A stretch of DNA of 64,000 bases from Spirochaetota bacterium (GTDB taxonomy: Bacteria; Spirochaetota; Brachyspiria; Brachyspirales; JACRPF01), in assembly GCA_016214035.1 (NCBI GenBank), contig JACRPF010000006.1, positions 145,458 to 209,457 on the forward strand, in the 5' to 3' direction. The first letter of the stretch is position 1. Each line of letters opens with the position of its first letter. This document shows, in pieces, positions 1 to 8,845 of this stretch. The notes under the pieces were generated by a model that had not been told where the DNA came from, did not search any database, and worked only from the letters and a program-made list of their open reading frames with translations. A program made the position numbers and the translations under genes.

Positions 1-326
1 ACCGCCACACCGCCGAGCGTGAGCAGATACACCATCGTAATGATATCCGCATGACCCGCGAGGATATTGACGCGTGAGCCCAGCGGCAGAAACGCGATGA
101 CACTCAGAATGGACGCGAACGCGAGCATGGGCGCTATGGTGAACGCGAGGCCGCCGCTTTTCATGTTGTCCTTGCCGAGCAGCTTCAACAGATCGCGGTA
201 CGGCTGAATTACCGGAGGCCCCTGACGGGACTGCACCCGGGCTATGATCTTTCTGATAAGTCCCTCGAAGAGGGGTGCAAGCGCGAGAAACAGAAGTACG
301 TTGATGATGCTGAATACGATATCCAT
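1..326 (-). CDS. Group 4 hydrogenase membrane subunit, HycD/EchB/NuoH-like (3' end runs off window)
   Basis: Translation from ATG at 326: MDIVFSIINVLLFLALAPLFEGLIRKIIARVQSRQGPPVIQPYRDLLKLLGKDN..., typical of complex I subunit 1/HycD (GLIRK, RxGPP..QPYxDLxKL). Confidence 0.85.
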   Translation of the reverse strand, partial: MDIVFSIINVLLFLALAPLFEGLIRKIIARVQSRQGPPVIQPYRDLLKLLGKDNMKSGGLAFTIAPMLAFASILSVIAFLPLGSRVNILAGHADIITMVYLLTLGGVA

Positions 327-330
327 CGTG

Positions 331-2019
331 TTATTTCCTCGCCGTGGCGGTCAGCGCAAGCGCTTCAAGTTCGGCACCGGTCATACGCACCACATCACCT
401 GAACGCACATCGATACGTGCGAGACGGTCCGTACATGAGAAACACGGGTCGATGCTGCCGATGATGATGGGAAGATCGGCGAACTGTTCGTCCATGAGCA
501 TGAGCGGCACGCCCTGGAGATTCGGGTACGTGGGGGCGCGCACACGCCAGCGCTCGGGCCGGTTATTCTCGCCGGTGATGAGATAATGCACCGATTCGCC
601 GCGCGGGGCTTCAACCGCCATGACCGCGTGGTTACCGGGTTTCAGTTCTTCGGCATATTCGGTCATGAGCGCGCCGTCGGGCATGTCGGCCAGCGACTGG
701 CGTATTATCTTGATAGCCTCGAACGTTTCGAGTATGCGCACCACAAGCGTTCCCCACACGTCGCAGCTGTCGACAACGGGTACATCGAATTTCACCGCAT
801 CGTACGCCGCATACGGGACGTCACGACGGACATCGATATCCACACCGCGGGCGCGCGCCACCGGTCCCACAAGACCGTATTTGATCGCCTGTTCTTTGGT
901 GATGGTGCCCACACCTTTCGTGCGCCGGTGTATCAGCGAATCGTTGGCAACCGCTTTATGTATGGTGACAAGCTCGGTCTCTATCTTCTTGATGACGGTA
1001 AGCAGTTCTTCCCTGAGATCCGGGGTTACATCGCGCCTGACACCGCCCACGACAATCATCCCGTAGGTTTTGCGGTTACCGGTGAGTTTTTCACCGAACC
1101 ACATGAGCGCCTCACGAACGCGCCACGCCTGCATGAACACGGTGTCGAAACCGATGAGATGACCGGCGATGCCGAGCCAGAGCAGATGCGAATGCACCCG
1201 TTCTATCTCAAGCATGATGGTGCGTATATATTCCGCGCGCCGCGATATCCTGAGCCCTGAGGCGAGTTCCACCGCCTGCGAATACGCGGCCGCGTGCACC
1301 GATCCGCAGATGCCGCAGATGCGTTCGGCGATAAACGGTATTTCGTTGTATGAAACCTGTGTCTGACAAAGCTTTTCAATGCCGCGATGCACCATGAATC
1401 CGCGGTACTCGCAGCCCTTGATGGTCTCGCCGTCTACATACACGGCGAAGTGTTCGGGTTCGTGAAGTGTTGGATGGAACGGCCCCACCGGAACCACCGT
1501 AGTGCCCGCGGGCGCCTCATCGAGCTGAAAAGCGACCTTGTCTGCCGGCGGCGGCATGAGATTCCACGGAACTTCTTTCCGCATGGGATATATGCCTTCG
1601 GGCCAGTCATCCGATAAAATAAGACGTTTGGGATTCGGATGTCCTGTGAATGTCATCCCGAGCAGGTCGAAGCATTCACGCTCAGACCAGTCGGCACCGG
1701 GGATGTCGGGGGTTATCGATTCGAACGAAGGATCGTGCTCCGGGGCGCTCGTGCGCAATGCGACAAAAACGCCGGGCTTGTCGAAACAGAACGAATGGAT
1801 GAGCGACAGCGTTTTGTTCTCGGCGAGCGTGTCATAGCCGATACCCACCTGATAGCGCGCGCCGAGCTCGATGAGCGTGCGGGCGGCCTGGCGAAGCACG
1901 GTCCGGTTCACGTCAACATAGATGCGGCGCGTATCGCGCGTGACACCGACGACGCCGCCGGGTATCGCCGCTTTGAGTTTTTCTTCTATTGATTCAATCG
2001 ATTCGATGGTCATTATCAT
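331..2019 (-). CDS. Group 4 [NiFe]-hydrogenase large subunit, HycE-like (fused NuoC+NuoD-like)
   Basis: N-terminal NuoC-like domain; both Ni-ligand motifs present: RICGICGSVH and DPCFSCTDR. Confidence 0.92.
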   Translation of the reverse strand: MIMTIESIESIEEKLKAAIPGGVVGVTRDTRRIYVDVNRTVLRQAARTLIELGARYQVGIGYDTLAENKTLSLIHSFCFDKPGVFVALRTSAPEHDPSFESITPDIPGADWSERECFDLLGMTFTGHPNPKRLILSDDWPEGIYPMRKEVPWNLMPPPADKVAFQLDEAPAGTTVVPVGPFHPTLHEPEHFAVYVDGETIKGCEYRGFMVHRGIEKLCQTQVSYNEIPFIAERICGICGSVHAAAYSQAVELASGLRISRRAEYIRTIMLEIERVHSHLLWLGIAGHLIGFDTVFMQAWRVREALMWFGEKLTGNRKTYGMIVVGGVRRDVTPDLREELLTVIKKIETELVTIHKAVANDSLIHRRTKGVGTITKEQAIKYGLVGPVARARGVDIDVRRDVPYAAYDAVKFDVPVVDSCDVWGTLVVRILETFEAIKIIRQSLADMPDGALMTEYAEELKPGNHAVMAVEAPRGESVHYLITGENNRPERWRVRAPTYPNLQGVPLMLMDEQFADLPIIIGSIDPCFSCTDRLARIDVRSGDVVRMTGAELEALALTATARK

Positions 2020-2029
2020 AGTCCTCGGT

Positions 2030-3889
2030 TCATTGCTTCACGTTGCCGCCGGTCCACCAGAGCAGCTTCTTCAGTGCGGAGAACATATGCGTGCTCGTAT
2101 ACCGGTTCGAATTTTTATGGTCCTGATAACCGCACAGCCACGGTTCGGTTTTCTGTTCCTTCGCGCCGCCCGAACGCTTCAGCAGTGCCGCGAGAATGAA
2201 CGCACCCGCGATGACCGCAAGTATCATGAGCGGCAGCGCCGTTGCGACGATGTTCGCTCCGATGCCGGGAATCATCAGCGAAACACCGGTTTTCCTGTTC
2301 ACGATCTGTTCACCGAACGCGGACGCCGCGAACAGCGATTCGAGCGACGAAGATTCCGATGCGCGGAACACCGCGGCGATAAGTTTATAAAATGCTATAG
2401 GGAAAAGGCCCTGCACGATGCAGACCAGCGCCAGCAGCAGTTTCGGCAGGAGCATCGAGAACGGGACTTCCTTCACCGGATGGGGCACGTTCCACTGAAC
2501 ACCGGATGCGGCGAACGTCATGCCGAAGAGTTTCACATAACAGGCAAGCGTAAGCGCGCTCGTGAACAGCGCCACGATACCGAAGAGCGCGAGCCACGGC
2601 ACCGTGCTTCCCGCGAGAAGCGATGACGCGACGATGGTCCATTTGCTCGCAAATCCCGAAAGCGGCGGCACTCCCGATATCGCGAGCGATGCGACCGCGG
2701 CAAGCGTTGCGGTAACCGGCATGAGCGCCATAAGCCCGCCAAGCTTGTTAAGGTCTTTCGTACCGGTGGCATAGAGCACGCTGCCGCTTGAAAGAAACAG
2801 AAGCCCCTTGAACACCGCGTGATTGATGACATGATAGAGCGCGCCGATGATGGATATAAGCGCAAGCGCTTTGACGAACGGCGAACTGCTGTACATCATA
2901 AAGAGTGCGCTGCCTACGGCGAGAATGATATATCCCACCTGCCCGATGGAGCTGTACGCGAGCAGACGCTTCGAATCGTTCTGCTTCATCGCCTGCGCGG
3001 TACCCACGAACAGCGTTACCGCTCCGGCTGAAGCGATGATAACACCCCATATGGTGCCGTTGAAACCCTCTGGTGTCATCCAGAAAAACGTCCGCAGAAT
3101 ACCGTAGACGCCGGTCTTGATCATGACACCCGAAAGCATGGCGCTCACCGGTGACGGAGCGATGGAGTGCGCGTCGGGCAGCCACAGCTGACCGAACGGG
3201 AATACCCCGGCCTTGAAGCTGAAACCCACCAGGATGAACCCGAACACGGCGAAGAGCGCCGCGGGTTTCATCGCCGCCATCTTCATCGTGATGTCATGGA
3301 GCGTATCACCGATGGCGATGCCGTTGACGAAGAGCGTCCCGGTGATGATGAGCACCCACGCAAGTTCCATGAGTATGAGATATTTGTTCGCGTTACGGAC
3401 ATTGCCGGGAACGCGATGCTCGAACCGGATGAGCGCATAGGAAGCCACCGTCATGAGCTGCCAGGAGATACTGAACCCCATCGACAGATCGTCAACGGTG
3501 AGTATACCCATCATGCCGAGCACGAAGAGCGGGAAGGCAATATAGTACCCGGCAAGTTTGTAGTCCTTGAAATGATCCATGTAGCGTATCGAATAGAGCG
3601 CGCTCATCACCGACATACCGGCGACCAGCGCAAGAAAAAGCGCCGAAAGCCCGTCGATGAGGAAGACGTATCTGACACCGAAGAGATGATATTCGTATGG
3701 CGCTATCGGCCCGGTAAATACCGCCTGGTAGCAGAGCGTGAGCACCACCGCTGCCGCGGCAGTCGTCAAAATCAGATTAATAATCCCCGCGGTCTTACGT
3801 GCACGGGATATGAGCGGCGATAGCACCGCGGATGCGATAAGCAGACAGACCGCCGTGACCGGATGTATGAGCTGAACAAGAACATTCAT
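2030..3889 (-). CDS. Proton-conducting membrane transporter, HycC/HyfB/NuoL-like antiporter subunit
   Basis: 619 aa multi-TM; motifs KAGVFPFGQLWLPDAHSIAPSPVSAMLSGVMIKTGVYGILR and LLAYSSIGQVGYI. Confidence 0.92.
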   Translation of the reverse strand: MNVLVQLIHPVTAVCLLIASAVLSPLISRARKTAGIINLILTTAAAAVVLTLCYQAVFTGPIAPYEYHLFGVRYVFLIDGLSALFLALVAGMSVMSALYSIRYMDHFKDYKLAGYYIAFPLFVLGMMGILTVDDLSMGFSISWQLMTVASYALIRFEHRVPGNVRNANKYLILMELAWVLIITGTLFVNGIAIGDTLHDITMKMAAMKPAALFAVFGFILVGFSFKAGVFPFGQLWLPDAHSIAPSPVSAMLSGVMIKTGVYGILRTFFWMTPEGFNGTIWGVIIASAGAVTLFVGTAQAMKQNDSKRLLAYSSIGQVGYIILAVGSALFMMYSSSPFVKALALISIIGALYHVINHAVFKGLLFLSSGSVLYATGTKDLNKLGGLMALMPVTATLAAVASLAISGVPPLSGFASKWTIVASSLLAGSTVPWLALFGIVALFTSALTLACYVKLFGMTFAASGVQWNVPHPVKEVPFSMLLPKLLLALVCIVQGLFPIAFYKLIAAVFRASESSSLESLFAASAFGEQIVNRKTGVSLMIPGIGANIVATALPLMILAVIAGAFILAALLKRSGGAKEQKTEPWLCGYQDHKNSNRYTSTHMFSALKKLLWWTGGNVKQ

Positions 3890-4380
3890 TGCACAATCTC
3901 CTCAACTGACGCGGTGCTCGGTGCATGCCGCATAAACAATGCCACCGCGGCATCGGCACTCTGCCGTACCTCGGGCGATATCCCCGCGCCGAAACCGGTA
4001 TCCTTCGCTTCGATGCCGAAGAGCCACACCTTTTTTCCGGACTTCTCGAATATCGATGACGATAGTGACAGCGCGGCTTTATGCGTTGTTGCGCCGGCAT
4101 GCTCGATGAACGACGCCATCGGACCGAAGACAACGGATCCAGGTACGCCGCCGGTGGTTACCGCATCGACGATGATCACATTCGGTTCTGTCCGTTCGGC
4201 GATACGAAACACATAATTCTCAAGTACATCCTCAACGTTCAGCACCGCAAGCCCCGGCGCCTTGTTGACGAGCGTATCGGCGATGTACGGCCCCGCGGCG
4301 TCGTCGTGCCGCAGATAATTACCCACGCCCACGACGCATGCGCCTTCGGCAAGACACTTCGCTACCCCGAGAGCAGGCAT
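3886..4380 (-). CDS. Hydrogenase maturation protease (HycI-like)
   Basis: Internal start MPALGVAKCLAEGACVVGVGNYLRHDDAAGPYIADTL; VGxGNxLxxDDxxGP is typical of hydrogenase endopeptidases; overlaps its neighbours in the operon. Confidence 0.85.
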   Translation of the reverse strand: MPALGVAKCLAEGACVVGVGNYLRHDDAAGPYIADTLVNKAPGLAVLNVEDVLENYVFRIAERTEPNVIIVDAVTTGGVPGSVVFGPMASFIEHAGATTHKAALSLSSSIFEKSGKKVWLFGIEAKDTGFGAGISPEVRQSADAAVALFMRHAPSTASVEEIVQ

Positions 4381-5213
4381 TATATCTGCTCCCCGAGCGT
4401 CTTGATCTGATGATAGGTATACACCGGCCCGTCGGTGCACACGAGCGTGCGTCCGATGGAGCAGTGCTGACATTTTCCGATGCCGCATTTCATATGCCTT
4501 TCGAGCGTGGAGATGATATTGTTCTCATCGAGTCCGCGTTCAACAAGCTCCTGAATGACGGCATTAAACATGACCGGAGGTCCGCAGACAAAGGCAACTG
4601 TATCTTTGAGCGGTATATCCGTTTTTTTTATGAGCGTATGCACGAAGCCCGTGCTGCCGTCCCATCCCGGAACCGGATTGTCCACGGTGACGAACGTTTC
4701 GAAACCGGGCGCCGTTTTCCATTCCTTGAGGTTCTGCTGATACATCAGTTCGCGCGGTGTCCGTGATCCGTAGAACAGAAGTATACGCCCGAACTGCTGA
4801 TTGTTCTGCATCACATGCATGATGGACGAGCGCAGCGGGATGAGCCCGATGCCGCCGGCCACATAGATGACGTTCTTGCCTTTGATATCCTCGAACGGGA
4901 ATCCGTTGCCGAACGGTCCGCGCACGCCGATCTTGTCGCCCACTTTGAGATCATGGAGGGCATTAGTCACTTTGCCGATTTTGCGGAGCGTTATATGAAA
5001 ACGGTCGTTTGTGGGACACGCGGGAAGTGATACGGCGAATTCGCCCGCGCCGAACACCGTGCACATGATGAACTGACCGGATTTGAACGCGAACGGTTTT
5101 TTATCCGGCCGCTGATCGAACGTTAGGTAGAAGGTCTTTACGTCGACTATCTCGTCGCGTATCTCGTCGATCGTGGCGATCTCCGGTATTGTGGTGTTTT
5201 CGATGTCAGCCAT
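4380..5213 (-). CDS. FAD/NAD(P)-binding oxidoreductase, sulfhydrogenase gamma (HydG)/AsrB-like
   Basis: Ferredoxin reductase-like fold with C-terminal [2Fe-2S] motif CGIGKCQHCSIGRTLVCTDGPVY. Confidence 0.85.
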   Translation of the reverse strand: MADIENTTIPEIATIDEIRDEIVDVKTFYLTFDQRPDKKPFAFKSGQFIMCTVFGAGEFAVSLPACPTNDRFHITLRKIGKVTNALHDLKVGDKIGVRGPFGNGFPFEDIKGKNVIYVAGGIGLIPLRSSIMHVMQNNQQFGRILLFYGSRTPRELMYQQNLKEWKTAPGFETFVTVDNPVPGWDGSTGFVHTLIKKTDIPLKDTVAFVCGPPVMFNAVIQELVERGLDENNIISTLERHMKCGIGKCQHCSIGRTLVCTDGPVYTYHQIKTLGEQI

Positions 5214-6282
5214 TCCGGTTTGCCTCTTCGTTGATGATCTCGCGCCGGATATAGGTTACGACATTCGGCATGCCGATGTCGCCGGGGCATACCCAGGCGC
5301 AGCGTCCGCAGCCCACACAGCCGGGACGCAGATATTTCTTCGATTGCGAATATGACAATTTGCAGAAGAACCGTTTACTGCGCCGGTCCTCGACGGGCTT
5401 GCGCGGATTGTGTCCGCCGGCCATGCGCGAGTAACCTTCAAAAGCGCACGAATCCCAGGTGCGGTTTCGGTCCGCAGCGCCGGATCCGGTGACCGCGTCG
5501 GCCACATTGAAACACGAGCAGCTCGGACAGACGAAGGTGCAGGCGCCGCACTCGAGGCACTGGTCGCCGATGTAGGTCCAGACATGGTCGTTGATGAGGC
5601 CCGTGGTGATGCGGTTGACCACGCGTGACATCCACGCCTTGTTCTCCTGCGCCACCGTGTCGAACAGCGAGAGCGATGTATCTATCGCCGCCGATTTTTT
5701 CTGCGTGAACGATGCATCGGCTTTTTTCAGCCGCATCGATTCAGCCAATGCCGTGCCGCGCTCGCTTCCGGTCTCAATGAGATACACATCGCCGAGTTCA
5801 GTGAGATTGAGATCATATCCTTCGCGCGCCGAGGGGCCGCTGTCCGTGCATGAGCAGAAACATTCGCGGAACGGCGACACACAGGTATTGGCTACGATGA
5901 ACGTCCGTTTGCGGAAGCTCCGGTACATCTCATCGATGTAATCCTGTCCAAGAAAAAATCGGTCAAGACACTGAAGTCCGGTAAGATCGCAGGAACGAAG
6001 ACCGAACAGCGCTTTCGATGTTTCATCGAAGAGCGGTGTGATATCCACTTTCTGCGCGGTCCTGTCATACTTGTACCTCATGATTGTTTTATAATGAGGA
6101 AACATGACGTGCTTTGCGGGTATCGCCGGCAATGCGGCAGTAAGACTGATGCGTTCAACATCCTCGGTGCGCGAGAACATCACCTGCAGTGAATCCTTTT
6201 CAAGGACGGGCCCGTAGACCTGATAGGTCTTCTTGAGCTCCCGCGCGATATCCATCACCCTGCTTTTTTCTATTATGTACAT
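5206..6282 (-). CDS. 4Fe-4S dicluster protein, sulfhydrogenase beta (HydB)/AsrA-like
   Basis: Two FeS motifs: CLECGACTFVCPSCSC and CVGCGRCAWVCPGDIGMP; adjacent HydG-like gene. Confidence 0.85.
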   Translation of the reverse strand: MYIIEKSRVMDIARELKKTYQVYGPVLEKDSLQVMFSRTEDVERISLTAALPAIPAKHVMFPHYKTIMRYKYDRTAQKVDITPLFDETSKALFGLRSCDLTGLQCLDRFFLGQDYIDEMYRSFRKRTFIVANTCVSPFRECFCSCTDSGPSAREGYDLNLTELGDVYLIETGSERGTALAESMRLKKADASFTQKKSAAIDTSLSLFDTVAQENKAWMSRVVNRITTGLINDHVWTYIGDQCLECGACTFVCPSCSCFNVADAVTGSGAADRNRTWDSCAFEGYSRMAGGHNPRKPVEDRRSKRFFCKLSYSQSKKYLRPGCVGCGRCAWVCPGDIGMPNVVTYIRREIINEEANRNG

Positions 6283-6284
6283 CG

Positions 6285-8300
6285 TTATACCTTCACTATC
6301 CGTACCGGGATGGCGGCATCCTGGCCGAGCTTCATGATACTCCGGTGCGCGAGGAAGAAATTGGTTACCATGTCATCCACAAAATAGGCGACGTATGCGG
6401 TGCGCGGCTTCACCTTGTCGGTGATCTGAACCATCGCCTCCATGGCGCCGTACGGTGAAACAAACTTTGCCACGCCGCGGTCGCGTATGCCGAGTGCTTT
6501 CGCATCCTCCGGGGATACCGCCACATAGCCGCGCGGATACAGAAGCAGCGTTGCGTTGTATTCACGCAGCGGTATGTTCGTCTTCTTCATGAGATTATTC
6601 TGATGCCAGTAATGCTGCGCCTCGCCGACGACCATGAGCACCGGATATTCCTCGCTTGCGGCGGGAACGCTGAAATTCCATTCCGTCGGAACGAAGTTCA
6701 TCTTCCGCGGCGAGTTTTCAATGCTGAAACGCGCCGTGCCTTTGGGATTTTCCGCCGTACACGGCCACTGTATGCCGAAGCTCTGTTCGAGCGCATCATA
6801 GCGATAGCCGGAATATACCGGTGTCAGCTGCGCAATCTCATCCATGACATCCGATGCCGAGGTGTACGTCCACGAACAGCCGGCCTTTGCCGCGATGGCC
6901 GTATACAACTGCCAGCCGGGCATTACATCGTCCTGCGGCGGACGCTTCTGTTTGAAAAGCTGCACGCGCCGTTCGGTATTGGTGAATGTCCCGTCGCTTT
7001 CGATGTACGGAGCTATCGGCAGCACCACGTGCGCATAATCGGTGAAACCATTCCTGAATGAACCGACATATGCGATGAAATCCACCGATTTCAGTTCCGC
7101 GCTGTGATGAATGACTGTATTGTCATGATCAACGACCACGAGTGCGCGAAGTGAACGGTTCGTGTTGGTGAGCAGGTCCTCAACCGTGCGGCCCGGACGC
7201 GCGCTCAGACGAACGCCCCATGCCTTATTGAACTTGTCGCGCACCGACGCGTCGCTCACCGGCTGATATCCGGTAAGGAGGTCAGGCGCTATCCCCATGT
7301 CGTAGGCGCCCTGCAGATTGGAAATGCCGGTAACCGGATTGACCCCGCATCCCTCTTTGCCGATCTTGCCTGACGCAAGAAAAAGATTATACAGATAACC
7401 TATAGTATCGCTGTCAAAGCCCGAGATGCCCGACGAGAAGAACGCCATCGCCGACGGGGCGCGGCAAATTTCACGTGCGGTCTCCTTAAGGAGGCTCAGA
7501 TCGATTCCCACATCCGCTTCGACATCGGCCACTTTGAGGAACGACAGACAGCCGAGGAACGCTTCATAGCCCTCAGTCTGCCGCTTGATATAATCGCTGT
7601 CGACGAGGTTTTCCTCGATAAGCACTTTCGCCATATAGGCAAGCGCCATCTTGAACGTGCCGGGACGTATCTGCAGAAAGCGGTTCGATAATTTCGCGAT
7701 CTGCGTATGACGGCTGTCCATAGTGACGACCGTGGCGCCGTTACGCGCGGCCATATGTATCTCGCTGCCGATGATGGGATTCTGTTTGGTGATATCGGCG
7801 CCGATGACGAATATATATTTGGATGATCTGATCTCTTCCAGCGATCCGAGCATGCCCGCCATGCCGGTGCCGCGATGCATGACATCGATGCTGTTACGGT
7901 GTCCGGGGTCTGAGTCGAGACACACATTGTGCGTGGAGAACGCCGTACGGGCCAGCTTCATGAACGTGTAATTTTCTTCATTTGACGAACGCGGTGAGCC
8001 GAGGAACCCGATGGCGTCCTGCCCTTCGTTGCGAAGCCTTGAGACGTTCTCTACGAAGAAACGTATCGCCTCATCGTAACTCACCTCAACGAGCTTGCCG
8101 TCTTTTCTGATCTGCGGTTTCGTGATGCGTTCATTCGTATTGAGAAGCTCATGCACGTGCCAGCCGCGCACACAGAGGCGGCCCTTGCTTACCGGATGGC
8201 TTTTTAGTGGAAACACCCCGCGAACATTCCCGTCACGCACATCGAGCAGGTGACCGCAACCGGTCCCGCAGAACGTGCATATGCCTGTTCTATAACTCAT
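6285..8300 (-). CDS. Molybdopterin oxidoreductase, formate dehydrogenase H (FdhF)-like but lacking the Sec/Cys Mo ligand
   Basis: N-terminal [4Fe-4S] CTFCGTGCGHLLDV...GRLCVRGW; strong collinearity with FdhF (GCGVNPVTGISNLQGAYDMGIAPDLLTGYQPV); residue 133 is Gly (GGA). Confidence 0.9.
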   Translation of the reverse strand: MSYRTGICTFCGTGCGHLLDVRDGNVRGVFPLKSHPVSKGRLCVRGWHVHELLNTNERITKPQIRKDGKLVEVSYDEAIRFFVENVSRLRNEGQDAIGFLGSPRSSNEENYTFMKLARTAFSTHNVCLDSDPGHRNSIDVMHRGTGMAGMLGSLEEIRSSKYIFVIGADITKQNPIIGSEIHMAARNGATVVTMDSRHTQIAKLSNRFLQIRPGTFKMALAYMAKVLIEENLVDSDYIKRQTEGYEAFLGCLSFLKVADVEADVGIDLSLLKETAREICRAPSAMAFFSSGISGFDSDTIGYLYNLFLASGKIGKEGCGVNPVTGISNLQGAYDMGIAPDLLTGYQPVSDASVRDKFNKAWGVRLSARPGRTVEDLLTNTNRSLRALVVVDHDNTVIHHSAELKSVDFIAYVGSFRNGFTDYAHVVLPIAPYIESDGTFTNTERRVQLFKQKRPPQDDVMPGWQLYTAIAAKAGCSWTYTSASDVMDEIAQLTPVYSGYRYDALEQSFGIQWPCTAENPKGTARFSIENSPRKMNFVPTEWNFSVPAASEEYPVLMVVGEAQHYWHQNNLMKKTNIPLREYNATLLLYPRGYVAVSPEDAKALGIRDRGVAKFVSPYGAMEAMVQITDKVKPRTAYVAYFVDDMVTNFFLAHRSIMKLGQDAAIPVRIVKV

Positions 8301-8533: not shown

Positions 8534-8845
8534 ATGGAAAAAAACGAACTTGCGAAACGCCTCGCACTGGGCCGTAACGAGAAATGCCACTGCGGATCGG
8601 GTAAAAAATACAAGCATTGCCATATGCCCGCCGACGAAACAGCAATGCAGGCGATACGGCAGAAAGAAGAGGCGGCAAAGGCCGCTGAAGCCGCGGCAGA
8701 CGCCGGAAAAGAGGAAAAGACCGCCGAAACGCATGACAAGCATACATACAAACGCCAGGACTATGTTGTAAAAAATCGTCCGACGGCGCCGGCCCATGCG
8801 GGGGCATCGCAGGTCAGTCTGCCCAGAAAATCCGGCGGGGGCTGA
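8534..8845 (+). CDS. SEC-C metal-binding motif protein
   Basis: LGRNEKCHCGSGKKYKHCH is the SEC-C motif; Ala/Glu-rich tail. Confidence 0.85.
   Translation: MEKNELAKRLALGRNEKCHCGSGKKYKHCHMPADETAMQAIRQKEEAAKAAEAAADAGKEEKTAETHDKHTYKRQDYVVKNRPTAPAHAGASQVSLPRKSGGG

Follow-up and report, generated by a model that had tools for sequence, protein, structure and literature searches.

A formate dehydrogenase-like protein with glycine at the metal-ligand position is probably a molybdenum-free subunit of a group-4 [NiFe] hydrogenase

Main

Relatives of formate dehydrogenase (FDH) occur in several described redox complexes. In the Escherichia coli formate hydrogenlyase FHL-1 (HycB–G plus FdhF), FdhF is the soluble partner of a group-4 [NiFe] hydrogenase. 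In complex I, NuoG is a former molybdoenzyme of the MopB family that lacks the catalytic Mo site, and its change from enzyme to wire or scaffold is old and hard to test. The StnC/NfnC subunits of electron-bifurcating transhydrogenases contain an FDH/NuoG-like domain that serves electron transfer, and Stn, although annotated as an FDH, did not display oxidation of formate (PMC7483475). In Dehalococcoides, the FDH-like OmeA forms a complex with a [NiFe] hydrogenase and a further redox module; the role of its molybdopterin motif is not understood and its cofactor is unconfirmed (PMC6005880). Finally, a region of Saganbacteria RX5A that has been called enigmatic combines a group-4 hydrogenase, asrA and asrB with an unclassifiable molybdopterin oxidoreductase (PMC6349859). 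That report is the nearest that we found to the family described here, which no publication named in a search that most subscription journals lay outside.

Here we analyse a 64,000-nucleotide stretch of a Spirochaetota genome (the window), in which an FdhF homologue with glycine at the metal-ligand position heads a hydrogenase operon. The features of interest are as follows.

6285..8300, minus strand: FdhF-like MopB-family subunit, 671 aa (profile searches and alignment)
7902..7904, minus strand: GGA codon of Gly133, the Mo/W-ligand position (alignment)
5206..6282, minus strand: AsrA/sulfhydrogenase-beta-like iron–sulfur subunit, 358 aa (Pfam Fer4_22)
4380..5213, minus strand: AsrB/sulfhydrogenase-gamma-like FAD, NAD(P) and iron–sulfur subunit, 277 aa (profiles and motifs)
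3886..4488, minus strand: HycI-type hydrogenase maturation protease (PF01750, TIGR00072)
2030..3889, minus strand: HyfB/NuoL-like antiporter-type membrane subunit, 619 aa (PF00361, PF00662; best NCBIfam model hydrogenase 4 subunit B)
331..2019, minus strand: HycE-like large subunit of a group-4 [NiFe] hydrogenase, 562 aa (both Ni–Fe ligand motifs, CGIC and DPCFSC, intact)
1..326, minus strand: HyfC/NuoH-like membrane subunit, truncated at the end of the window (operon reading)

The locus resembles each of the known systems in part. Like FHL-1, it has a group-4 [NiFe] hydrogenase (the best solved match of its HycE is subunit 5 of E. coli FHL, 7z0s_E), HyfH-, HyfI-, HycE-, HyfB- and HyfC-type subunits and an FdhF homologue as the soluble partner; unlike FHL-1, it has a dead FdhF-like site, no HycB-type ferredoxin, an AsrA/AsrB-type NAD(P)H module and a single antiporter-type subunit. 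As with NuoG, a MopB-family protein that lacks the catalytic Mo site but keeps an N7-type [4Fe-4S] site adjoins NuoC/D-, B-, I-, H- and L-type subunits. Unlike NuoG, the window protein falls below the cut-off of the NuoG model (127.7 bits against 470), and an N-terminal 2Fe-2S domain was not found in it by Pfam. StnC/NfnC differ in being soluble, fused to a GltD-like NADPH domain and without a [NiFe] hydrogenase, and OmeA differs in belonging to an outward-facing organohalide respiration complex, at about 106 kDa and related to Fdh-N/O. The RX5A region also carries cooF and Mrp subunits, and its ligand residue is not given in that report; because the full-length Omnitrophota relatives in our analysis are of the Cys/Sec type, it may represent the intact relative.

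Loss of the formate site

The FdhF-like frame has no internal stop and contains the Pfam domains Molybdop_Fe4S4, Molybdopterin and Molydop_binding. Among NCBIfam models it scores best against formate dehydrogenase alpha (TIGR01591), with 450.1 bits where the equivalog cut-off is 666.25. We mapped residues against E. coli FdhF (b4079, from MG1655). The original prediction, made by eye, had placed Gly133 at the selenocysteine position of FdhF and kept the catalytic His141 as His134, and both assignments held: Sec140 aligns with Gly133, encoded by GGA, so that neither Cys nor Sec occupies the Mo-ligand position, and the ligand region is ungapped in HMM alignments to solved FDHs. The same prediction had replaced the active-site arginine with glycine. 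The arginine is indeed lost, but Arg333, which sits in PVRGQNNVQG, corresponds to Thr324 (T/A/V across the family), whereas the glycine in question, Gly301 within SDTIGYLY, matches Arg310. Gln335 corresponds to Ile326 (Ile/Leu across the family) and Lys44 to Arg45. Of the features expected under TIGR01591, the protein therefore retains His141 and the N-terminal [4Fe-4S] cysteine set and lacks the Sec/Cys ligand, Arg333 and Gln335. The [4Fe-4S] motif remains as predicted, with all four ligands (Cys8/11/15/43) kept and invariant among its relatives.

An AlphaFold2 model (pLDDT 78.7, pTM 0.82, from a 21-sequence alignment) matches the FDH fold, with a TM score of 0.83 to FdhF (1fdi). Confidence is low in the [4Fe-4S] domain and in the former cofactor loops 433–454 and 560–589, as the alignment is shallow.

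A family with invariant glycine

Glycine is invariant at the ligand column in around 50 relatives from Spirochaetota, delta-proteobacterial MAGs and Chitinibacteraceae, as checked in a 21-sequence alignment (A1), in 30 loci (27 by motif and the remaining three by alignment) and in a set of 29. By contrast, the same column holds Cys in 38, Sec in 14 and Gly in none of 52 comparison Sec/Cys FDHs from Spirochaetota, Omnitrophota and E. coli. Full or nearly full members, with at least 49% identity, occur in 30 of 394 sampled Spirochaetota genomes, and a sharp gap separates them from the next FDHs in that sample, at 35% or less. Among 399 sampled Pseudomonadota genomes, only the one that served as the centre of the sample carries the family, and the Chitinibacteraceae copies therefore look acquired. 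Cultured carriers of the operon include Chitinibacter, Chitiniphilus, Chitinilyticum and Deefgea. Full-length Omnitrophota matches are of the Cys/Sec type, and we rejected the idea of glycine forms in that phylum; the one exception (L026) is a 62% fragment on a 2.5-kb contig that lacks the ligand region and may be contamination.

The changes extend well beyond the ligand. The glycine family retains 31 of the columns that are invariant in FDHs, among them the four cluster cysteines (Cys8/11/15/42 in FdhF numbering) and His141. In FdhF numbering, Lys44 to Arg, Sec/Cys140 to Gly, Asn176 to Asp, His181 to Asn and Gln301 to Gly are fixed in the family, which also lacks, among others, Arg333, Gln335, Gln428, Asp478, Thr579, Arg581 and His585, often with another fixed residue in their place. 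The segment with Asp404 and Thr408 is deleted, and Arg138 is replaced by Asp or Glu. The Gly, Asn, Gln and Gly of the RGQNN region are kept. By the roles ascribed to individual FdhF residues, several of the replaced positions line the bis-MGD site. The claim that MGD-type regions remain is thus borne out for the fold and the glycines and fails for most of the side chains expected to contact the cofactor.

A fixed operon with a putative NAD(P)H module

The operon runs in the order FdhF-like, AsrA-like, AsrB-like, HycI, HyfB, HycE, HyfC, HyfH, HyfI and response regulator, with HyfH, HyfI and the response regulator lying past the window edge (L003:5379-7784). This order recurs in 18 of the 24 loci from one genome scan, namely those with uncut clusters (in one of these, L024, the fdhF-like gene is itself cut by the contig end), and in L083, L084 and L107. 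In two delta-proteobacterial MAGs, a hyfC-like gene precedes the fdhF-like gene (L010:42-994 and L012:166-1059), and no hyfB match was found on these contigs. The last gene of the operon codes for a response-regulator-like protein with a receiver domain and about 133 aa (L003:5379-5780), and it is conserved across phyla in complete operons. The longest HycI open reading frame overlaps asrB by 109 bases, and the true start is probably an internal ATG at around 4383. Upstream of the operon, a small divergent gene at 8534-8845 on the plus strand has an N terminus, NEKCHCGSGKKYKHC, that by eye resembles a SEC-C type metal-binding motif.

The AsrA-like subunit has two Cys-rich 4Fe-4S motifs, and its nearest solved chain is the beta subunit of sulfhydrogenase 1 (9nez_B). 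Both Asr-like subunits give full-length matches that stay below the equivalog cut-offs of the HydB/ShyB/AsrA and HydG/ShyC/AsrB NCBIfam models (170 bits against 690 and 198 against 600, for example), and by these profiles they are relatives, not equivalogs, of sulfhydrogenase beta and gamma. In 23 of 23 cases, the large subunit has both of its Ni–Fe CxxC pairs, HyfI its cluster motif, the AsrB-like subunit its cysteines and CGPP, and the AsrA-like subunit both cysteine motifs; every module of the operon except the FDH therefore looks active. By its two CxxC pairs, its NuoH-, NuoL-, NuoI- and NuoB-like partners and its maturation protease, the hydrogenase belongs with the FHL-like group-4 [NiFe] enzymes; the operon does not qualify as a formate hydrogenlyase, given the dead FdhF-like site and the missing HycB ferredoxin, for which no gene was found among the ten of the operon.

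Carriers without a molybdenum cofactor pathway

We searched carrier genomes, one gene family at a time, for genes that make and sulfurate the Mo cofactor; each search was positive in the control genomes as well as in most of the other carriers. In two drafts, the genome of the window (G000, 98.2% complete) and the one same-family genome found to carry the FdhF-like gene (G169, 97%), MoaA, MoaC, MoaE, MoeA and FdhD were not found. Both genomes contain HypD, indicating that hydrogenase maturation is kept, and their FdhF-like frames are full length, with 71% mutual identity. The only other PF00384 (Molybdopterin-family) match in G000 is NuoG; this short NuoG-like protein of 500 aa lies on contig 14 (L004:7594-9096), and other complex I genes are absent from the stretch read. 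The bacterium of the window thus appears unable to make molybdenum cofactor. No other single argument speaks as strongly for a cofactor-free function as the retention of a full-length FdhF-like frame in genomes without these genes.

The majority of other carriers have MoaA, MoaC and MoeA, and usually FdhD too, so that cofactor occupancy stays compatible with their genome content. G144 lacks MoaA, MoaE, MoeA and FdhD and gives a partial MoaC match, which makes this genome ambiguous, and MoaA and MoeA were found without FdhD in two Chitinibacteraceae genomes (G013 and G015).

Probable origin from an FDH–AsrAB module

In a phylogenetic tree, the window protein falls within the glycine clade beside Sec/Cys FDHs. 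The clade is monophyletic (SH-aLRT 100) on a long stem of 1.5–1.6 changes per site, and its placement among the Sec/Cys FDHs is to be read with these long branches in mind. A Cys-type FDH (L085) appeared as its sister at first, with SH-aLRT 80, and this grouping dissolved once Omnitrophota were added. Because tree and gene order both place the subunit with FDH, it looks independent of NuoG.

A related gene arrangement is a Cys-type fdhA-asrA-asrB triplet, which probably encodes an NAD(P)-linked formate dehydrogenase with sulfhydrogenase-type beta and gamma subunits. Such triplets occur in the Spirochaetota genome G069 (L106:4462-8443) and in seven of the nine Omnitrophota loci (L141, L143–L145 and L147–L149), in each case without the hydrogenase operon of the glycine family; an eighth Omnitrophota locus (L146) has all three genes in a different order. 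The L143 triplet is followed by genes for, among others, a MobA-like transferase, FdhD, a solute-binding protein, MoeA and MoaA, and upstream of the L145 triplet are hydrogenase maturation genes and HyfH-like and antiporter subunits. The triplets share with the window family three genes in the same order and an equally sized FDH subunit that lacks a long N-terminal extension; they differ in having Cys and the full FDH signature. At 16 diagnostic sites, the best triplet FDH reads KRCHADHMQRQQDRHH and the window protein RDGHRDNSGTIVGEYF. FDH–AsrAB modules thus exist in working form, and the window family reads as such a module that was attached to a group-4 hydrogenase and whose formate site was abolished. 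Probably the joining to the hydrogenase came first, and the FDH subunit ceased to be catalytic afterwards.

Proposed function and alternatives

That the protein is not a normal formate dehydrogenase, as originally proposed, is supported by the loss of the active site across the family. Of the two roles then suggested for it, an electron-transfer or structural subunit like NuoG gains support from this loss, from the invariant operon with its hydrogenase and NAD(P)H modules and from the missing cofactor genes, and we consider it likely, on sequence grounds, that the FdhF-like protein is a Mo-free electron-transfer or scaffold subunit of the group-4 [NiFe] hydrogenase. The operon would then probably encode an NAD(P)H-linked membrane hydrogenase. 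Electrons would be exchanged between NAD(P)H and the FAD and Fe–S centre of the AsrB-like subunit, between this centre and the AsrA-like clusters, and from these through HyfH and HyfI with the Ni–Fe site of HycE. The single [4Fe-4S] cluster of the FdhF-like subunit may lie in the chain with the AsrA-like clusters or, as with N7 of NuoG, to one side of it. HyfB and HyfC would couple electron flow to ion movement, and the complex could either release H2 by drawing on ion-motive force or take up H2 to feed it.

The glycine family appears to be a second instance, separate from NuoG, of an enzyme turned wire or scaffold, here next to a complex-I-related hydrogenase; the intact Cys-type module survives in other bacteria, and some carriers have no cofactor pathway. 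The predicted activity can be tested in cultured Chitinibacter, Chitiniphilus, Chitinilyticum and Deefgea. Automatic annotation would label carriers as positive for formate dehydrogenase or formate hydrogenlyase, which is probably wrong.

Within this reading, it is plausible, if somewhat short of an even call, that the subunit is purely structural, its cluster lying off the path while the AsrA-like subunit passes electrons straight to HyfH. The single cluster sits in an N7-type Molybdop_Fe4S4 domain, the AsrA clusters could already bridge to HyfH, and in the FDH–AsrAB triplet the FDH is an entry point, not a bridge. The invariance of the cluster cysteines and the adjacent position 45 weighs against this, but is compatible with either role.

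We would regard it as unlikely that the vacated pocket, with its own fixed residues (Arg45, Asp169, Asn174, Gly133-His-Arg135, His392-Asp393, and the QHYWHQNN and REYN stretches), has been refitted to bind another ligand that gates or senses NAD(P)H–H2 electron flow, and that the MopB fold has thereby gained a new kind of site, whether active or regulatory.

Arsenite oxidase is a bis-MGD enzyme without a protein ligand. An active Mo/W enzyme of this sort that used some substrate besides formate and passed electrons to the hydrogenase would account for the retained fold, Fe–S site and His134, and many carriers encode Mo-cofactor synthesis. The cofactor-contact positions have, however, been altered together, and the operon is retained in genomes without the five cofactor and insertion genes. 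We rate this slightly lower again. Oxidation of another substrate, the second role suggested at the outset, is disfavoured because it would require Mo cofactor, the pathway for which is missing from the genome of the window and its relative.

A decaying, functionless FDH relic would fit the lost active site and the one copy that is split between two frames by a frameshift or assembly error (L022:10001-11922, UBA5368). Nearly all members are full length, with 40–71% identity across phyla, 103 invariant columns among 21 sequences and a constant operon position, and this conservation rules out a pseudogene, leaving decay very improbable.

As GGA is one base from the Sec codon TGA, we lastly considered an error in sequencing or assembly that masks Sec or Cys, and we dismiss it as next to impossible: every member checked, in independent genomes, has glycine, encoded by all four codons (GGC 26, GGG 14, GGA 8 and GGT 5), and the closeness of the two codons, to which the original prediction had drawn attention, therefore means nothing.
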